64,000 bases of DNA from Gammaproteobacteria bacterium. Its GTDB lineage: Bacteria; Pseudomonadota; Gammaproteobacteria; GCA-001735895. The translations under genes were made by a program, and so were the position numbers. Shown here piece after piece: positions 4,834-13,874 of the stretch. Below the pieces are notes generated by a model that ran no database searches, was not told the DNA's origin, and saw nothing but the letters and a program-made list of their open reading frames with translations. Within the stretch, counting starts at the first letter, position 1. Each line of letters begins with the position of its first letter. The stretch spans positions 62,001-126,000 of the forward strand of contig JAAEMR010000010.1 of the NCBI GenBank assembly GCA_024225395.1. The letters are read 5' to 3'.

Positions 4834-5013
4834 TTAGCGTATTAATTTACGGATGAAACGAATCAAACCGGACTTTTTCTCAGACAATGGCTTTGCTATA
4901 GGTGTCCTGGTATCGGGAAAATATTTCAAACGTTGTTTGCCGGTTAAAATAAGCATTTTATCTTCGTTCAGGTCCTTATTGATCTGTGTGATGGTATCTT
5001 CTGATAATTCCAT
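4834..5013 (-). CDS. Short basic protein, 59 residues, unknown
   Basis: An ATG at 5013 opens a 59-codon frame ending in TAA at 4834. The product starts MELSEDTITQINKDL and ends with the basic tail IRFIRKLIR. Codon composition resembles real genes of the window (acidic first half, then a Lys/Arg-rich half), but no strong ribosome binding site precedes the ATG and no family is recognised. The tail could be an amphipathic membrane-binding helix. Treat as a candidate small gene. Confidence 0.45.
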   Translation of the reverse strand: MELSEDTITQINKDLNEDKMLILTGKQRLKYFPDTRTPIAKPLSEKKSGLIRFIRKLIR

Positions 5014-5156
5014 AGTTATTAGGCATTGAATAAAGTTCGTTGATTATATCCAGCGATTAAGGTGGATATGTGTTCTGTTTCACATTCGAATTTATTCCCC
5101 GGTGCTTTTGTAAATTTTGTGTTTTAGCTCACAGCTCGACAATAAAGGGTGAAGGT

Positions 5157-5495
5157 TTAGATGATCTTAATATCTGTTTCGGCTGTTAGTTTGTTGATGG
5201 TAAACAGCATTTCACAATATTCTGAGTTGGGATCTACTGGAGTGGGGTCATCCGAACAGTTGCAGCCAGCGATAATGCTGGAGTAAAAAATACCTGCAGT
5301 AATTAATAGACTATCTTGTTGCTCGGTCATGCTGTTGACTATGATCTTGAGGTTATCTTTGGTGGCATAACTCCCGAGCAGTAAAGCCTGTTGCAGAGGT
5401 AGCTCATCCAGTGAAAGCTGACTCAGCTGCCGGATAAAAGTGGACTTAAACTCTGCGCTATTCCACGCCTGTAATGATTTAGTTAACTGGAGCAT
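5157..5495 (-). CDS. Conserved hypothetical protein with Cys-x-Cys motif
   Basis: The 112-residue product is cytoplasmic, starting MLQLTKSLQAW. The distinctive part is the C-terminal third: IIAGCNCSDDPTPVDPNSEYCE, in which two cysteines one residue apart and a third 17 residues later could bind a metal. I recall similar short proteins in many gammaproteobacteria and pseudomonads with the same AGC.C.DDPTP...EYCE signature, but no function is known to me. It is a single gene, divergent from the ABC exporter at 5624. Confidence 0.65.
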   Translation of the reverse strand: MLQLTKSLQAWNSAEFKSTFIRQLSQLSLDELPLQQALLLGSYATKDNLKIIVNSMTEQQDSLLITAGIFYSSIIAGCNCSDDPTPVDPNSEYCEMLFTINKLTAETDIKII

Positions 5496-5623: not shown

Positions 5624-6505
5624 ATGAACCCTATTCTGTCGGCTCACAATTTAATAAAAACCTACCCTGATGTTATTGCTGTTAACGATATCGGGTTTGA
5701 AGTGGAAGCTGGTAGTTGCTATGGCCTGTTAGGTCCGAATGGCGCAGGAAAAACCACCACCATGGAAATGCTGGAAGGTATTATTCAGCAGGATTCAGGT
5801 GAAATTCTGTATCAGGGGCAAGCGGTTAACGCCGGCTTTAAGCATGAAATTGGCATTCAATTTCAATCTACCTCTCTACTTGATTATCAGACGGTGATTG
5901 AAGCGCTGGAAATGTTTGCAGCGCTTTATGAAAATACTGTTGACCTTGATGAGTTGATTGAACTGTGCCATTTAAAGGAATTCATCAATAGAGATACTCG
6001 AAAACTTTCGGGGGGGCAAAGACAAAGACTGCTACTGGCAATAGCACTGGTTAATGATCCTAAGCTGGTTTTTCTGGATGAACCTACGACGGGGCTGGAC
6101 CCACAGTCTCGCAGGAATTTCTGGCATTTAATCGAGAGTATTAAACAGGCTGGAAAAACAATTATCCTGACTACGCATTACATGGAAGAAGCGTATCGAT
6201 TATGCGATCAGATCGCTATTGTTGATCAGGGAGAAATTATTATTGAAGGTAATCCGGATGAATTATTAAAGTTACACTTTGCGCCCACGTTCATCAGACT
6301 ACCGAAAGCCGCCGTCATGAGACCAGAGCAAATACCCGATGACATTAAACTGGTGGACGGGTTATATGAAATGTCTACCGATGACGTTCCGGCTTCTATT
6401 GCTCGTCTTGAAAAATTAGGCATTGGACTGGAAGACTGTCAGATAGGTGCTCCCACTCTGGAAGATCTGTTTTTGAAGTTAACTGGCCATGCGCTGAGAA
6501 CATAA
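5624..6505 (+). CDS. ABC-2 type exporter, ATP-binding subunit
   Basis: A 293-residue ABC ATPase that would energise the permease encoded immediately downstream. Walker A is GPNGAGKT near residue 38, the signature LSGGQRQR lies near 128, and Walker B with its glutamate (LVFLDEPTTGLDP) near 147, followed by the switch His in THYMEEA. About 70 residues after the ATPase core resemble the C-terminal extension seen in CcmA/DrrA-type exporters. The ATG has a close AGGA ribosome binding site. The class exports drugs, lipids or polysaccharide; the substrate here is not predictable. Confidence 0.88.
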   Translation: MNPILSAHNLIKTYPDVIAVNDIGFEVEAGSCYGLLGPNGAGKTTTMEMLEGIIQQDSGEILYQGQAVNAGFKHEIGIQFQSTSLLDYQTVIEALEMFAALYENTVDLDELIELCHLKEFINRDTRKLSGGQRQRLLLAIALVNDPKLVFLDEPTTGLDPQSRRNFWHLIESIKQAGKTIILTTHYMEEAYRLCDQIAIVDQGEIIIEGNPDELLKLHFAPTFIRLPKAAVMRPEQIPDDIKLVDGLYEMSTDDVPASIARLEKLGIGLEDCQIGAPTLEDLFLKLTGHALRT

Positions 6506-6507
6506 TC

Positions 6508-7521
6508 ATGAAAATGTCTAGAATGATGGCGGTCATGCGGGCACGATTCCGTGAGTTTTATCGGGATACGGCTTCCTGGTCGTGGAACCTGGTCATGCCT
6601 ATTCTGATTATTACCGGATTTTCTTTTATCTTTAGTGGTGACTCAGAAGATATGTTCAAGGTGGCCGTGCTGCAAAATGATAGTAACGATGACATAGCAT
6701 TCTTAAAAACAGATTATATCCGTTTTATTAAAGTCACTGATCTGGAAAGTGCCATGACCAAAGTACAGCGGCATCAAATTGATATGTTGCTGGATTTAAC
6801 GGGCAAACCGAAATACTGGATTAATGAGCATTCGGCCAATGGTTATATGCTGGAAAAGATATTTCATGAATCTTTCCTGGCAAGCTCTTTATCGTTTCAG
6901 CGCGAACTGGTTAGCGGACAGGATATACGCTATGTAGACTGGGTGATGCCCGGAGTGCTGGCGATGAATATGATGTTTTCCTGTCTGTGGGGTGTGGGAT
7001 GGGTGGTTGTTCGTTACCGCAAAAATGGAGTGCTGAGGCGATTGCAGGCGACACCCTTAACGCCTTTTGAGTTTTTAAGTGCACAGGTGATTGCTCGAAT
7101 GATCATAGTTACAGCAGTGACTTTAATGGTTTTCCTGGGTGCTGATCTGGTGGTCGATTTTACTATGCGTGGCTCCTACCTGGCATTGTTTCTGGTGTTT
7201 TTCAGTGGCGCCGCCTGTTTAACCAGCATGGGTCTCATGGTGGCTACCCGGCTTAGAACGGAAGAGGTTGCTGATGGATTACTGAATCTTTTAAGCTGGC
7301 CGATGATGATTTTCTCAGGGGTCTGGTTTTCCATGGAGGGTACTCACCCGGTTGCTCAATTTATTTCCCAGATGTTTCCGTTAACACATCTGGTGGATGC
7401 ATCCAGACGCATTATGATCGATGGTGCGGGTGTGTCTGGTGTTGTGTTTGAGATAAGTTTATTAAGTGGTTTGACACTACTGCTTTTGTTTATTGCTTCA
7501 AGACTGTTCAGGTGGTCTTGA
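6508..7521 (+). CDS. ABC-2 type exporter, membrane subunit
   Basis: A 337-residue ABC-2 permease starting 2 bases after the ATPase stop, so the pair is translationally linked. One helix near residue 27 is followed by a periplasmic domain of about 120 residues. A five-to-six helix bundle then follows, with the conserved WVMPGVLAMNMMFSCLWG segment and the coupling-region basic residues RYRKNGVLRRLQATPL. The overall plan matches the YadH/DrrB/NodJ-like family with an enlarged extracytoplasmic loop. It acts in the inner membrane with the preceding ATPase. A weak hairpin (7524-7549) follows the stop codon. Confidence 0.85.
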   Translation: MKMSRMMAVMRARFREFYRDTASWSWNLVMPILIITGFSFIFSGDSEDMFKVAVLQNDSNDDIAFLKTDYIRFIKVTDLESAMTKVQRHQIDMLLDLTGKPKYWINEHSANGYMLEKIFHESFLASSLSFQRELVSGQDIRYVDWVMPGVLAMNMMFSCLWGVGWVVVRYRKNGVLRRLQATPLTPFEFLSAQVIARMIIVTAVTLMVFLGADLVVDFTMRGSYLALFLVFFSGAACLTSMGLMVATRLRTEEVADGLLNLLSWPMMIFSGVWFSMEGTHPVAQFISQMFPLTHLVDASRRIMIDGAGVSGVVFEISLLSGLTLLLLFIASRLFRWS

Positions 7522-7639
7522 ATCAGTAATCTACAATAAAAAATTACTGAACTATTTGATTTCTGGGCGGCGGAATTATGCACAAACCGTCCATTCATGA
7601 AAACTTTATATTCCATACTGGTATTCTTCCGATCGCTTG

Positions 7640-7955
7640 TTAAGCAGATCTCCCCGGATAAGAACATTAGCTTTTACGGCACCACTCCTGATGTCTTGTG
7701 CCATCCCAGCTACAGCCTATGCCTCGTAAGACTTTTTTGTTCATCTGCTCACGTTTTGCTTACCGGTTACCGTTCCCTTCGGTCACTCTCGCTGCGCTCA
7801 TTGTCTCCGCTACGCCACGGCTCCTACAGATTTTTCCTCACGGATAAACCCTTGCCATTCGCCAGTAGTTATCGTCTAATCACGGTATGGATTTCGACGG
7901 TGATTTTCCTACAGAGGACTCTTGCCTCATTAGTTAATTCCCATATCCGGCGTAC
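7640..7955 (-). mobile_element. Group IIC-attC intron relic (5' domain I part)
   Basis: Read on the minus strand from 7955, the sequence begins GTACGCCGGATATGGG. It then shows landmarks of group IIC intron RNA in order: AGTCCTCTGT, GGCAAGGGTTTATCCGTGAGG, AATCTGTAGGAGCC, GAACA...CGAGGCATAGG, and finally ATCCGGGGAGATCTG, which normally sits before the intron's reverse transcriptase gene. The sequence stops matching near 7640: no reverse transcriptase and no domain V are present, so the intron is truncated and cannot splice. Its 5' end abuts the bottom strand of an attC site exactly where group IIC-attC introns insert. Identification is from remembered consensus of the class, not from an alignment. 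Confidence 0.75.
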
Positions 7956-8017
7956 ACAATAAGCTCCAAAAGGAATCGCTCACTGTGTTCGCTCTCCTTT
8001 AAGCTTAGCCGTTAGCG
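7951..8017 (+). other. Integron attC site (relic)
   Basis: TAAGC at 7960-7964 and GCTTA at 8003-8007 form the outer L boxes, AAAGGA (7969-7974) pairs with TCCTTT (7995-8000), and the core-site-like GTTAGCG follows at 8011-8017. The interior CGCTCACTG.GTTCGCTC is typical of attC sites from chromosomal integrons. The opposite end, which should be RYYYAAC, is interrupted by the group IIC intron at TTGT. No integrase gene is in the window. Confidence 0.65.
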
Positions 8018-8155
8018 GTCAATAATGCGGGTGAAGAAATCAATACCGATAATACTGACACCTGGTATAAAATAGTTGAACTCTTTCAACAAAATTGGGG
8101 TGTTATCAAGCCATCTGATTCTGACTGTTTGTATTTGTTACTAACGGTAAGATAA
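8009..8155 (+). pseudogene. Possible 3' remnant of a cassette gene
   Basis: From the attC core site to a TAA at 8153-8155 there is an open frame of 48 codons without any start codon, ending DTWYKIVELFQQNWGVIKPS..LYLLLTVR. The amino-acid composition is protein-like. It ends 10 bases before the kinase start. It may be the tail of a gene whose 5' part was lost when the cassette array decayed; chance is an alternative. Confidence 0.3.
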
Positions 8156-8165
8156 CCAGCTAAAT

Positions 8166-10538
8166 ATGAGTATCAAACTTCGTACCTATGTATTGCTAAT
8201 ACTTCTTCTGTTTGGCCTGGCGCCCCTGGTGACCGAGCAGTTGATGAATCAGCCACTGATCTTCAACAAACTAACCCAGCTCTATCATGATGCCCATCTG
8301 CAGAATCTACGTGCAGACTTCCATGAACTGGATCAGCATATTGCAAGTCGTCGAGAGACTGTGCGTATCATGTCTCGCTTTCCACACATGAAACAGTTAA
8401 TGTCCGGGCAGGCTGGGCCGGAACTGGACGTGGTGAAGGAACGTTATACGGATTGGATGAATCGCCTGGTGTTTGATCGGAAAGATATTGCACAGGTGCT
8501 ATACGTTGACCAGGATGGTAATGAACGACTGTTGATGCATCGCGACCCGACGACCAGTGAAATGTACATCGAGGAGCAACTGAAGATTAAGGTAGAGAAG
8601 TCATTTCTTGATAGTGGTATCAAGTCAGTGCGGGGCCGAGTGAGAACCGGCCCGATAGACATAGACGAACAGGCTGGTCAGTTGAATCCAACGCGTTTTA
8701 TCAATCTGCAGTTGATTACCCCTGTGTATGAGCAGGAATATGGAGGAGCAGGGTTTGACCCTTCGGCCGCCCCTTTGGGAACAGTTGTGATCAATCTGGA
8801 CGTTAGTGGTCTGGCTCGGGTCTTCAGCGATATCCTGTGGGTACATCACAGCGGCAGGTATTTTCGAGGTGTGGGTGCTAGTGAAGATGGGTCTACAGCA
8901 TTTACCGATTATCCTGGTCTGAATCGCCTGTTCGAAGCGGGTAATCTGGGTTTGTGGAGAGGTGAGAATGAACGCCAGGCGATCTGGGTACCTCTATTCC
9001 CCACCACAGGTTCTGGTCCTCTATGGGTGGGTCGCCTTGTCGATTCTTCTCCTCTGGATACTTTTCGAAAAAACCTGGAGCTACGCACAGCTGGTATTAT
9101 GTTGGCCATGGTTGTCATGATATTCATCGTGGCTCAGTTGTTTGCAAATCGTGCCGTGAAACTCCAGGCATCCTTCACCGATGGTATCGCGCGCATGCTG
9201 GATGAGGACAAGCCGGTGACGTTTGACTGGACTAGTCCACGGGAGGCACGCGCACTGGCTGAGAAGCTTACTACCTTGTCAGAAAAGCATGCAAAAAACA
9301 GTGGTGACCTTCGTGATTACGCGCGGGAACTGGAGAAGACCAACCGGTACAAATCAGAGTTTCTGGCTAATGTCAGTCACGAATTGCGTACGCCGTTAAA
9401 TTCGATTTTATTGTTGTCAAAGTTGTTGGCATCTGATCAACAGGGCCTGGATGAGAAGCAGAAACAGCAGGCGAGGGTGATCAATATGGCGGGGCAGGAT
9501 CTGTCACAGCTGATAAACGACATCCTCGACTTATCGAAGATTGAAGCTGGGCGACTGGATCTGAAAGTTGACAAGCTGATCATTGTCGACCTGTTAAATG
9601 ACATTCAGGATCTGTTCAAGCCTGTTACTGACGACAAAGGCCTGGAACTGGTGATGGATATTCATGCGTCTGCACCGGAGACTCTGTATACCGATGCTGA
9701 TAAACTCTCGCAAATTTTGAAAAATTTCATGGCGAATGCCATTAAATTCACGGCACAGGATCAGGTTACCCAGGGTCGGGTAACATTGCTCCTGGAAGAT
9801 GTTGTACCGGATAGTCGATGGCCGATCAGGATCAGCGTCATTGATACGGGTATTGGTATTTCGGAAGACAAGCAGGAACTTATCTTTGAAGCTTTTCAAC
9901 AGGCAGACGGGTCAACCAGTCGCCGATATGGTGGCACCGGGCTGGGACTTTCAATCAGTCGTAAACTCGCGGAATTGATGGGCGCGCGCATCAGTGTCGA
10001 GAGTCAGTTGGGGCAGGGTGCAACCTTTACTATCATGCTGCCAGAGAGATTGGTCACGGATGAAAGTGATGAACCGGTTATGCCTGAGCGCCATAACATG
10101 CAGGGGGACTTGCAGGCGGAAGATACTGAAACCATTCCGATTGCGGATTTTAAAGGTGCGCGAATTCTTATGGTGGATGATGATATGCGCAACTTGTTGG
10201 CGTTGACGCCTGTGCTTGAGGGATGGGGGCTGGATGTGATCGCCGCGGGCGATGGTGAAGAGGCGCTGGAAACGCTGGCAGAGGAGTCCGACGTGGCGGT
10301 CGCATTGCTCGATGTCATGATGCCCGGGATGGACGGTTTGGCCTTGGCTGGAGCCATTCGTGAGCAGTCCCGGTTTGCTACGCTACCCTGTGTTGGGCTC
10401 TCTGCCAAAGCGGGCGATGATGATCGAGAGCGCTGGCTTGCGCTGGGTGTCGGTGATTACCTGGTCAAGCCGGTTGATGTCCGTGAACTACACAACGTGC
10501 TGAGCAAGGTCTTAAATGAGGAGACGGATAAGCTATGA
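8166..10538 (+). CDS. Membrane hybrid sensor histidine kinase
   Basis: A 790-residue hybrid kinase. A helix at residues 5-24 and a second near 308-328 enclose a periplasmic sensor domain of about 280 residues that looks Cache-like. After a linker comes the HisKA domain with phospho-acceptor His405 in NVSHELRTPLNS, then the HATPase domain with the N box NAIKFT near 525, the G boxes DTGIGIS and YGGTGLGL. A receiver domain follows from about residue 665, with phospho-acceptor Asp716 in LLDVMMPGMDG and the conserved Lys in YLVKPVD. No output domain is fused, so phosphate should pass to a partner, probably the next gene, which overlaps by 4 bases (ATGA). Base composition is clearly more GC-rich than neighbouring genes, consistent with transfer. 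Confidence 0.9.
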   Translation: MSIKLRTYVLLILLLFGLAPLVTEQLMNQPLIFNKLTQLYHDAHLQNLRADFHELDQHIASRRETVRIMSRFPHMKQLMSGQAGPELDVVKERYTDWMNRLVFDRKDIAQVLYVDQDGNERLLMHRDPTTSEMYIEEQLKIKVEKSFLDSGIKSVRGRVRTGPIDIDEQAGQLNPTRFINLQLITPVYEQEYGGAGFDPSAAPLGTVVINLDVSGLARVFSDILWVHHSGRYFRGVGASEDGSTAFTDYPGLNRLFEAGNLGLWRGENERQAIWVPLFPTTGSGPLWVGRLVDSSPLDTFRKNLELRTAGIMLAMVVMIFIVAQLFANRAVKLQASFTDGIARMLDEDKPVTFDWTSPREARALAEKLTTLSEKHAKNSGDLRDYARELEKTNRYKSEFLANVSHELRTPLNSILLLSKLLASDQQGLDEKQKQQARVINMAGQDLSQLINDILDLSKIEAGRLDLKVDKLIIVDLLNDIQDLFKPVTDDKGLELVMDIHASAPETLYTDADKLSQILKNFMANAIKFTAQDQVTQGRVTLLLEDVVPDSRWPIRISVIDTGIGISEDKQELIFEAFQQADGSTSRRYGGTGLGLSISRKLAELMGARISVESQLGQGATFTIMLPERLVTDESDEPVMPERHNMQGDLQAEDTETIPIADFKGARILMVDDDMRNLLALTPVLEGWGLDVIAAGDGEEALETLAEESDVAVALLDVMMPGMDGLALAGAIREQSRFATLPCVGLSAKAGDDDRERWLALGVGDYLVKPVDVRELHNVLSKVLNEETDKL

Positions 10539-11422
10539 AAGGGCAACAACAATATGCCGGGTTCAAGGTGCTGATTGTCGACGACAATCCAAACAATTTA
10601 TTCACCTTACGTACTTTGATCGAGAAGTATACTGACGTACAGGTAATCGAGGCGGATGGTGGGGAGAAGGCGGTCAAGCTTGCGCTCACTGAGAATGATG
10701 TCGATCTGATCATCCTTGATGTTCAGATGCCAGAGATGGATGGTTTTCAAACCGCTTCCATGCTCAAGGTGCGCAAAAAGACGCGCGAGATCCCGGTGAT
10801 ATTCCTCACCGCTGCCTACAAGACAGACGAGTTTCAGCAGAAGGGGTACGAAGTGGGTGCTGCCGATTATCTGTTGAAGCCTATTGATGACAATTTGCTG
10901 CTGAATAAACTGACAGCCTATTTTCGTCTGATTGAAAAAGAACGCGCACTGAACGTATTGTTGGAAGAAAAAGTAGCACGGCGCACGGCTGAGCTGGAGC
11001 AGATCAGGCGGTATCAGGAAGGTCTATTGAATACCATGGGTGAGGCGCTGCTGGTGCTCTCTCCTGAAGGACACATCAAGTCCACCAATCCTGCAGCGCA
11101 GAATATGCTGGGTTACAATGAAACTGAACTGGTTGGTCTGAGCATTGGTGATGTTTTTGAAGAAGCCGAGGACGAGCAGGCTGGTGCCTTCATGGGAACC
11201 TGGTTGGAAGCGATAATTCGTACTGGCGTGGTAAGGAATGTCGAAGCGCGATTTATTACCAGGAACGGTACTCTTGTGCCAATTCTGTTCTCACGCACCG
11301 CGATGGCTGACGAGGCAGGAGTAGCCACGGATATTATCTGTATCGCGAAAAATATGACCGGTTATGTAAAGCTAGATGATGACGATGACCTACCTGCACC
11401 AAATACGGGAGATTTTGTATGA
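10535..11422 (+). CDS. Response regulator receiver protein with PAS domain
   Basis: A 295-residue soluble protein. Residues 10-130 form a CheY-like receiver with the acidic pocket DDN at 17-19, phospho-acceptor Asp62 in ILDVQMPEMDG, Thr in FLTAAY and Lys in YLLKPID. A coiled-coil linker (about 133-163, EKERALNVLLEEKVARRTAELEQ region) leads into a PAS domain (about 165-285) with the usual GxxLVLSPEGHIKSTNPAAQ start. There is no DNA-binding, kinase or nucleotide-cyclase output domain. It overlaps the kinase upstream and the ArsR-type gene downstream by 4 bases each, so the three are surely one operon. It may relay phosphorylation into a protein-protein signal sensed or modulated by the PAS pocket. 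Confidence 0.88.
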   Translation: MKGQQQYAGFKVLIVDDNPNNLFTLRTLIEKYTDVQVIEADGGEKAVKLALTENDVDLIILDVQMPEMDGFQTASMLKVRKKTREIPVIFLTAAYKTDEFQQKGYEVGAADYLLKPIDDNLLLNKLTAYFRLIEKERALNVLLEEKVARRTAELEQIRRYQEGLLNTMGEALLVLSPEGHIKSTNPAAQNMLGYNETELVGLSIGDVFEEAEDEQAGAFMGTWLEAIIRTGVVRNVEARFITRNGTLVPILFSRTAMADEAGVATDIICIAKNMTGYVKLDDDDDLPAPNTGDFV

Positions 11423-11748
11423 GTAAAGAACAACCTGCGTCACCAGTGAAGCAATCAGCAGAAGAGGCTGCTCTCACGGCGAACGCACTGAAGGCTATGG
11501 CCAACCCGCTACGCTGGCGGATCATCTGTGCTCTGGGTAGTGAAGAACTTTCAGTGGGCGATATCGTGGAGAGAATAGGCACATCGCAAAGCAATATCTC
11601 CCAGCATCTGATTTTGCTAAAGGCTAAAAATATCATCAAGTCCCGCAAAGATGCCAACAAGGTGTATTACAGTATTAGCAATGATCAATTGTTGTTGCTG
11701 ATTTCCAACATGCGCACAGTACTGTGTCATACCAATCTTGATGACTAG
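11419..11748 (+). CDS. ArsR-family winged-helix regulator
   Basis: A 109-residue winged helix-turn-helix protein. The region ALKAMANPLRWRIICALGS is typical of ArsR/SmtB proteins, followed by the recognition region VGDIVERIGTSQSNISQHL and the wing KDANKVYYSIS. The metal-binding ELCVCDL box of classical ArsR members is absent, and only Cys40-area and Cys104-area cysteines occur, so it may be metal-independent. Because neither upstream signalling protein has an output domain, this protein is the likely transcriptional end of the pathway. Start and upstream stop share ATGA. The operon order kinase, receiver-PAS, ArsR is unusual. Confidence 0.88.
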   Translation: MSKEQPASPVKQSAEEAALTANALKAMANPLRWRIICALGSEELSVGDIVERIGTSQSNISQHLILLKAKNIIKSRKDANKVYYSISNDQLLLLISNMRTVLCHTNLDD

Positions 11749-11818
11749 ATAAGTGGGGTCAGATGAAGTTTTCTGGTTAATCGCTTGATCAGATCAAAGG
11801 AAGTTACATATGATCCTG

Positions 11819-11847
11819 CTTGTTTAATTTTTTCAACAATAAACAAG
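11819..11847. terminator. Weak hairpin after the signalling operon
   Basis: CTTGTTTA at 11819-11826 pairs with TAAACAAG at 11840-11847 across a T-rich loop. It lies between the ArsR gene and the convergent antiporter gene, but the stem is AT-rich and no clean U-tract follows, so terminator function is uncertain. Confidence 0.3.
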
Positions 11848-11900
11848 AAGTCATATTTTATGTTCTATCAAGTTGGTATGAAATTATTTATCCGTGACCC

Positions 11901-13874
11901 TTAGTTTTTTCCCCGATAAATTTCAAGTTCTGCAGCCCGGGTTTCATTCGTTGGACCTTCCACAATAATGACGTCATTAGCCAGTAATAAAGTTTCCGGT
12001 CTAGGGCTGTCTGTACGAATTCCATGCCTCACTAGTGCGATTATGGAAGTGTGTTGATCAAATACAAAACTATTGATTGCTCTGCCGATGGAAGGAGAAC
12101 CTTCAAGTACTTCGATGCTGTGCAGGTGATGAAAATGTTCCGGGTGTTCATAGTCTTCCTGGCTATGAAAAAATGCCCGAACACGGGAATAATGGTTGCT
12201 CCTGGCCTGATCAATCATGTCATCGACAATCTCTCTTTTTAGTCCGAAATGGGTCAGGGCATGCCAGGCTAACATCATGCTTGATTCTACGGTGTCAGGA
12301 ACAACATCGGTCGCACCCGTTTCCAGCAATTCTTCCAGATGTAGATCATCACGAGTTCGCACGATAATAGGGACATCCTGACGAAGTTGTTTTGCGCTGC
12401 GAGTGATATGATGACTTACGTTGAAATCATGAAAAGTGATGATGATTGCTCGGGCATGATCAATACCGGCATGTTGTAAAACTTCCGGGTGACTGCTGTC
12501 GCCATAATAAACCGGTTCACCTGCATCCCAGTTTTCATTGATCAGGTCAGGATCGAGTTCAAGAGCCAGAAACGGGATGTTGACCTGCTTTAAAAATTGA
12601 GAAAGGTTTTGCCCGGTGCGTCCAAAGCCACAGATAATGACATGATTTGATACATGATCTGCGGCCTGCTCAATATGTGTATCATGTTGTTTTTGTTGAG
12701 CAAGGTAATCCGGGCTCAGCCAATTTGCGATCTGGCCGTTATAGCGAATAATCATCGGAGAAATGACCATGCTGAAAACGATGGCTGCAATAATGGGCTG
12801 GCTTACTTCCAGTGATAATAATCCACTACTTAACCCCACACCGAGTAATGCAAAACCAAATTCACTGCCCTGTCCTAATGATATGCCTGAACGAATTGCA
12901 ACGCCTGTTTCATTACCTGCAAGGCGTGATATCAAAATGACAGCCAGCCCTTTGCCGAAAATTAAACTCAGTGTTAACACTAAAACAGCGATCGGTTCGG
13001 TGAGTAAAATGTGCCAGTTGAATTGACTGCCTACCGAGATAAAAAACAGTCCCATTAATACATCTTTAAAGGGGCGAATCTCAGTTTGTACCTGGTGCTG
13101 GAACTCGGTTTCGGCCAGCATAATGCCGGCCAGAAAAGCCCCCATGGCCAGGGACAGCCCCAGTTTCCAGGTTAGCCATGCAGCCAGTAAAGTGATCAAT
13201 AAGATAAACAGGGTAAATAATTCAGACGAATAGGTCGATGAAATCCAGTGGGTAACTGGTCGAATAAGATAGGTTCCGACGATATAGATAAGGGCAAATG
13301 CTGCCGCACCTTTTAGTAAAGCGAGACTAATGGGCACTAACAGGCTGCCAGCTTCCGGTTGTGCAAATATAGGAATCAGTACCAGAAAAGGCACAACGGC
13401 CAGATCCTGAAACAACAAAACGCCGAGGGCAATATGACCGTGACGGCTGTGTAACTCGTGCTGTTCGGTGAGCTGTTTGACTACGATGGCCGTGGAGGAT
13501 AATGCCAGTGCTCCACCTACGGCAAAAGCGGCTTGCCATGACATGCCTAGCCACATAGCGAGTCCAAGTGTGCTGAATGTGGATACAAAAACCTGGGCAA
13601 AACCAATACCGAATACGATACCTTTCATTGACATCAATTTCGGTATTGAGACTTCAAGGCCGATGGTAAATAACAGGAAGACGACGCCAATTTCCGCAAT
13701 TTGTTCAATCGCCACAGAATGCGGAATCCAGCCTAATGTGTGGTGTCCTGCCAGCATGCCAACAAGCAGGTAACCGAGCACGGATGGCAAGTTGATCTTG
13801 CGGAAAATTGCCACGCTGATTACAGAAAAAAACAGCAGGATGAGAACCTGGTTTAACTGGTCAAATTCATGCAT
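11901..13874 (-). CDS. CPA2 cation:proton antiporter with RCK domains (KefB/KefC type)
   Basis: A 657-residue inner-membrane protein. Residues 1-380 form 11-13 hydrophobic helices of the Na+/H+ exchanger fold, with LPSVLGYLLVGMLAG and the LLFTIGLEV segment typical of CPA2 members. An RCK/TrkA-N domain begins near residue 410 with the dinucleotide motif GFGRTG, and a TrkA-C domain occupies about 570-650. It most likely moves K+ outward in exchange for protons. The glutathione-gating partner KefF or KefG is absent nearby, so regulation may differ from E. coli KefC. The gene lies about 30 bases upstream of no other same-strand gene; the cytochrome gene precedes it in the same direction with a 30-base gap. 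Confidence 0.88.
   Translation of the reverse strand: MHEFDQLNQVLILLFFSVISVAIFRKINLPSVLGYLLVGMLAGHHTLGWIPHSVAIEQIAEIGVVFLLFTIGLEVSIPKLMSMKGIVFGIGFAQVFVSTFSTLGLAMWLGMSWQAAFAVGGALALSSTAIVVKQLTEQHELHSRHGHIALGVLLFQDLAVVPFLVLIPIFAQPEAGSLLVPISLALLKGAAAFALIYIVGTYLIRPVTHWISSTYSSELFTLFILLITLLAAWLTWKLGLSLAMGAFLAGIMLAETEFQHQVQTEIRPFKDVLMGLFFISVGSQFNWHILLTEPIAVLVLTLSLIFGKGLAVILISRLAGNETGVAIRSGISLGQGSEFGFALLGVGLSSGLLSLEVSQPIIAAIVFSMVISPMIIRYNGQIANWLSPDYLAQQKQHDTHIEQAADHVSNHVIICGFGRTGQNLSQFLKQVNIPFLALELDPDLINENWDAGEPVYYGDSSHPEVLQHAGIDHARAIIITFHDFNVSHHITRSAKQLRQDVPIIVRTRDDLHLEELLETGATDVVPDTVESSMMLAWHALTHFGLKREIVDDMIDQARSNHYSRVRAFFHSQEDYEHPEHFHHLHSIEVLEGSPSIGRAINSFVFDQHTSIIALVRHGIRTDSPRPETLLLANDVIIVEGPTNETRAAELEIYRGKN

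Follow-up and report, generated by a model that had tools for sequence, protein, structure and literature searches.

For group IIC-attC introns, the exon consensus around the insertion point is given as TTGT/T (PMC7923331). The same paper describes the model of Leon and Roy for cassette birth by these introns, and in it truncated integron-associated introns (UHB.F1, H.ha.F1 and H.ha.F2) are already published; the kind of element treated here is thus known. Outward promoters were measured in group IIC-attC introns by Leon and co-workers (2010), as stated in a review (PMC8876359). In the open-licence literature no report was found of a chromosomal operon that is driven by such an intron outside of integrons.

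The window analysed here is a stretch of 64,000 nucleotides of a gammaproteobacterial draft genome (GCA_024225395.1, contig JAAEMR010000010.1, positions 62,001 to 126,000). A preliminary description had assigned positions 7640 to 8017 to a group IIC-attC intron remnant in a lone attC site. Judged by sequence comparison, the intron tip is the 5′ end of such an intron, still in the attC bottom strand it invaded. The integron-derived part comprises the following features.

7617 to 7955, minus strand: 5′ remnant of a group IIC-attC intron, about nucleotides 1 to 319 of the intron in G011 (blastn, alignments to full-length homologues, sub-threshold RF02001 match)
7760 to 7821, minus strand: zone with an insertion of about 53 nt absent from homologous introns (alignments, between which the exact placement varies)
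7852 to 7880, plus strand: promoter-like TTGCCA-17-TCTAAT within the intron remnant, facing the operon, of putative function (promoter scan, shuffles, homologue comparison)
7956 to 7959, minus strand: TTGT, end of the 5′ exon (IBS1) where the intron inserted (sequence and homologue junctions; consensus TTGT/T in PMC7923331)
7957 to 8017, plus strand: remaining attC part with L″ arm, loop, L′ arm and R′ box GTTAGCG at 8011 to 8017 (sequence, arm-pairing test, covariance model)
8018 to 8137, plus strand: start of the next cassette with a degraded open reading frame (ORF), which is open in G007 (comparison with G007; L124 is similar only from 8138 onwards)

On the minus strand the order is CGCTAACGG CTAAGCTTAAAGGA [loop] TCCTTTTGGAGCTTA TTGT/GTACGCC...ATGGG, with intron position +1 at 7955 and the numbering running downwards. 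The paired L arms, GTTAGCG, TTGT and the following GTACGCC...ATGGG were found as first described. The full-length intron of G011, a relative, and homologues on four plasmids have exactly the same junction, TTGT/GTACGCC. With the best piece per homologue, blastn gave E values of 1e-17 to 1e-34, far beyond chance. Junction, homologues and the full-length intron of G011 confirm the assignment to a group IIC-attC intron remnant in an attC site. Because junction and orientation match those of homologues in attC sites, we regard the identity and origin of the element, an intron 5′ end in an attC site and with it a piece of an integron fused ahead of an operon, as highly probable. Counted against it were that the attC covariance model misses the site in the window scan, that the Rfam match stays low, that the 3′ exon is gone and that the order of events has a single outgroup. 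At a permissive threshold, group-II-D1D4-3 (RF02001) was matched in 7500 to 8200 at 7663 to 7847 on the minus strand with 29.5 bits (E 4.7e-4), below the gathering score of 32 bits. The proposed covariance check thus returned domain I of a group II intron, but under the cut-off. At gathering score no Rfam match, domain V included, was obtained on either strand of the whole window.

The extent of the remnant differs from the first reading. It had been described to end with ATCTG at 7640, whereas blastn and alignments extend the similarity to 7617, perhaps to 7612. The series of domain I landmarks was borne out in its homology to domain I of this intron class, but not in its continuity: about 53 nt are inserted, and about 33 nt are absent near 7687 relative to homologous introns. 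No second copy of the inserted segment was found in the same genome, G001, G004 or G007. The motif TTGTTAAGC at 7638 to 7646 was considered as a second R box, which would make 7640 to 8011 a small cassette; this was rejected, since it lies inside sequence conserved in homologous introns. As no 3′ exon remains, the insertion can be checked from one side only. The remnant has no 3′ end, domain V or reverse transcriptase (RT) in the window and is hence expected neither to splice nor to retrohome by itself. The lack of the latter two was stated correctly before: no domain V match was obtained in the window, and no RVT_1 match in the genome. Having no intron-encoded RT/maturase, the element is classed as a remnant and not as an intact member of the class.

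Homologous introns occur on plasmids. With 7630 to 8030 as query, blastn matched 345 of 72,556 plasmid records (the lowest E value of the 20 listed being 3e-27); the matches come in pieces, none of which covers 80% of the query. In three of the four records examined (L002, L004 and L005) the match adjoins an ltrA gene for reverse transcriptase, located on the intron strand. The fourth, a Shewanella baltica plasmid (L003), lacks an annotated RT and has an IS21-type element next to the match; by this element the intron copy at about 4940 to 5313 ends after about 310 nt, near the end of the window copy. G011 carries (in L050) a full-length intron whose RT gene starts at nucleotide 518 and encodes an intact protein of 444 aa with RVT_1 and GIIM domains. 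Its 3′ end is followed, by eye, by TAGC, so that TTGT/TAGC would restore the attC site.

The R″ box of the attC site in the window is not intact, being split by the intron with its other half lost. The R′ box GTTAGCG departs from the strict consensus GTTRRRY, yet it is the same as in L050. Folding of the attC strand as DNA (z = -2.58) did not form the expected arms, and complementarity of the arms was therefore tested directly. The score of 8.5 was reached by 94 of 21,309 equally spaced pairs of the window and by 48 of 20,000 shuffles; few random hairpins, the comparison proposed earlier for this site, pair as well as its arms. The copy in G007 scores higher (11.5 vs 8.5). The attC covariance model was built from six sites (alignment A2) of the related genomes G016, G014 and G007, picked from a widened hand-made scan, leaving out longer or weaker candidates from L005, L096 and L102. 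In the window scan this model did not find the site, its best match lying elsewhere (12.3 bits, E 0.74); with filters off, the site was recovered in 7900 to 8100 in the right register with 7.8 bits. The comparable intron-split attC in L050 reached only 14.6 bits, and we ascribe the low scores to the intron replacing one R arm. Recombination at an attC site with one R arm split is considered unlikely.

Behind the R′ box, an ORF of G007 begins directly, as in cassettes, and reaches the upstream region of the operon. This cassette ORF piece had no match in plasmids or Pfam. Among the relatives it was found in three of 57 genomes: the genome of the window, G007 and, as a doubtful match, G011 (E 0.06).

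The absence of an integrase, noted before for the window, also holds for the draft genome, in which the best match to the integron integrase had 78.5 bits against a cut-off of 265 bits; as the genome is a draft, this absence is provisional. Of the 57 genomes searched, a set that contains this one, 21 have integrases over the cut-off, including the congeners G001 and G007. The genome-wide search recommended earlier yielded neither intI over the cut-off nor a second copy of the intron/attC element; on the intron side only an RT piece of 49 residues was detected. This piece was found with the G011 RT as query (78% identity), which matches 16 of the 57 genomes, this one included, and it lies at the edge of contig C261 (L088, 2 to 148) as part of a group IIC-type RT gene. 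The ORF beside it looks like one for an IS200-type transposase. Three further attC candidates were detected in the genome with the attC model, one in C129 (27.6 bits; L117, 3279 to 3362) and two in C48 (25.9 and 25.2 bits; L118, 717 to 792 and 4045 to 4131). The candidate in L117 follows an ORF of 122 aa, cassette-like. With these candidates and the RT piece, the element can no longer be called a lone trace: its attC is one of several attC traces of a genome without a detected intI.

The operon behind the integron part and its surroundings consist of the following features.

7522 to 11907, no strand assigned: stretch between the permease and KefB-type genes, 50 bp in G001 (comparison with G001 and G007)
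8166 to 10538, plus strand: the operon's first gene, for a histidine kinase of 790 aa with receiver domain (gene calls, domain matches)
10535 to 11422, plus strand: response regulator with PAS domain, 295 aa (gene calls, domain matches)
11419 to 11748, plus strand: ArsR-type helix-turn-helix regulator, 109 aa (gene calls, domain matches)

The three operon genes are free of inner stops, with omega values between the window and G007 of 0.14, 0.12 and 0.41. Between the window (8166 to 11748) and L124 (1502 to 5105), dS is 0.92 for the kinase gene vs 0.32 and 0.21 for the two downstream genes; the operon looks mosaic, as if its genes had been exchanged separately. The operon as a gene cassette itself was considered and dropped, since the attC model finds no site behind it in the window scan; none was found in L124 or L125 either. 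Among the matches listed for 41 genomes of the family, a full-length relative of the kinase occurs in the genome of the window and in G007, the other matches being partial with at most 43% identity. A scan of 84,980 species with the N-terminal part of the kinase confirmed two loci, the G007 contig, titled uncultured Gammaproteobacteria bacterium ERR2206791_bin.50 in the species collection, and L124, from a Gammaproteobacteria MAG.

A relative of the ABC permease gene is present in each of the eight genomes of the genus. From the end of the permease gene to the KefB-type gene, 4.4 kb are found in the window vs 50 bp in G001, and G007 carries 1.6 kb of unrelated DNA there (L058, 7318 to 8931) with an ORF which, by motif, may encode a diguanylate cyclase. 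This junction may be an insertion hotspot. The core of the segment, 7833 to 11816, is located on another contig of G007 with 89.7% identity and different flanks, and contains there the intron tip, the attC site, the cassette ORF start and then the kinase/regulator/ArsR-type operon. Directly behind the shared block in G007 (L049, about 5890 to 6075), a short element with inverted ends was seen by eye between two copies of CATATGACCC. Given the 50 bp of G001 and the different locus in G007, the 4.4-kb segment looks like a transplanted piece. The fusion was found in two of 41 genomes of the order, this one and G007. In L124, similarity to the window spans 8138 to 11758 (79.8%), covering the operon but neither the intron, the attC site nor the cassette start; integron DNA was thus fused about 30 to 55 bp ahead of the kinase start. 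In the simplest order, which is based on L124 as the single outgroup, the operon would have come first, the fusion second and movement between loci third. A former integron piece of intron 5′ end, attC site and next cassette start was fused directly ahead of the complete operon, whose own upstream region it probably replaced, and the fused block occupies different loci in the two related genomes. The putative outward-facing intron promoter at 7852 to 7880 may read through the attC site into the operon.

The promoter-like site is the only sigma-70-like site with 10 of 12 positions on the plus strand of 7600 to 8165. Ten of 12 was reached in 9.8% of the shuffles of this region, in 6% for 7833 to 8165 and in 1% for 7833 to 8017. 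A stricter stock promoter scan does not list the site, since it accepts only an A as second base of the -10 box. At a looser limit of 9 of 12, no site was found in the window between 8018 and 8165; in G007 one additional site accompanies that of the intron, and the upstream region of L124's own operon contains two sites that overlap and share TATAAT. In G007, the remnant of which is shorter, the site starts 19 bp into it. The TTGCCA is kept in the introns of L002 to L005, L050 and L051, while the -10 box is variable and, in L005, poor. Compared with fourfold sites (113 of 510 different between the window and G007), the promoter-like site (1 of 31 columns; p = 0.011) and the attC site (4 of 62; p = 0.0024) are conserved, in contrast to the rest of the shared intron (14 of 89; p = 0.21) and the spacer (25 of 148; p = 0.21), with p values for four stretches uncorrected and the site boundaries set after the motif had been seen. 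Against the rest of the shared intron the site gave p = 0.11, against all other non-coding columns p = 0.098. The conservation is therefore suggestive of a promoter role, not proof. We consider it possible, at somewhat less than even chance, that the putative promoter drives the operon. Slightly more tentative is the full reading in which the dead intron has been co-opted as operon promoter with the attC site as leader, both kept in two genomes while the remaining intron decays and the block moves.

Roughly even chances are given to the reading that intron tip and attC site have merely travelled with the operon as neutral debris and that its transcription comes from elsewhere, for example as read-through from the upstream ABC-transporter genes (5624 to 7521, same strand). 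In line with this reading, no terminator-like site was found in 7500 to 8300, and the promoter-like site does not differ significantly from the remaining shared intron. As the bases of the site are conserved in full-length introns anyway, a ribozyme legacy is a live alternative for their conservation. In G007, however, the upstream genes differ, which leaves no such read-through from the genes named above in that genome, and the conservation of site and attC relative to fourfold sites also argues against mere debris.

Decay in place, the first interpretation of this locus, implies an array between the permease and KefB-type genes that was deleted down to a scar. The presence of attC site, intron and cassette ORF start and the integrases of G001 and G007 would agree with this, and the integron origin it presupposes is upheld by the cassette-like ORF start of G007. 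Nevertheless, we hold it to be improbable that the array stood at this place, which is 50 bp in G001 and unrelated DNA in G007, where the block sits at another locus. An intermediate of cassette birth, with the intron joining an attC to a new gene by recombination, is more improbable still. Intron, attC and a non-cassette operon are indeed joined, but the attC lies ahead of the kinase gene and not behind it, the model finds none at the operon end, and the joint with the operon is at about 8110 to 8138, not within the intron.

On the reading of a fused integron piece, the locus shows integron debris outside its integron and joined to an unrelated operon, and it makes it possible to test whether a promoter carried by an intron works beyond cassette arrays. 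Furthermore, the TTGT junction allows the donor class of a single attC scar and its intron tip to be recognised, though attC detection and the Rfam cut-offs miss the scar.

Like a CALIN or single attC in the terms of IntegronFinder, the site in the window is an attC without neighbouring integrase; with one attC, already split by the intron, it is below the CALIN default limit of two given in PMC9024848. With the group IIC-attC introns (class C; S.ma.I2 and relatives) the remnant shares the position in the attC bottom strand after TTGT, the orientation opposite to the cassettes, the sequence of the 5′ end and the candidate outward promoter region. Unlike intact introns of this class, it is reduced to about 319 nt from the 5′ region, altered by one deletion and one insertion inside, is devoid of RT, domain V and 3′ end, and lies outside any array. 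Also close are UHB.F1, H.ha.F1 and H.ha.F2 (PMC7923331): they too are broken introns in cassette DNA, and H. halochloris likewise has no intI. In contrast to these introns, which are 5′-truncated and keep the 3′ part, the remnant described here keeps its 5′ end and is fused to a non-cassette operon.
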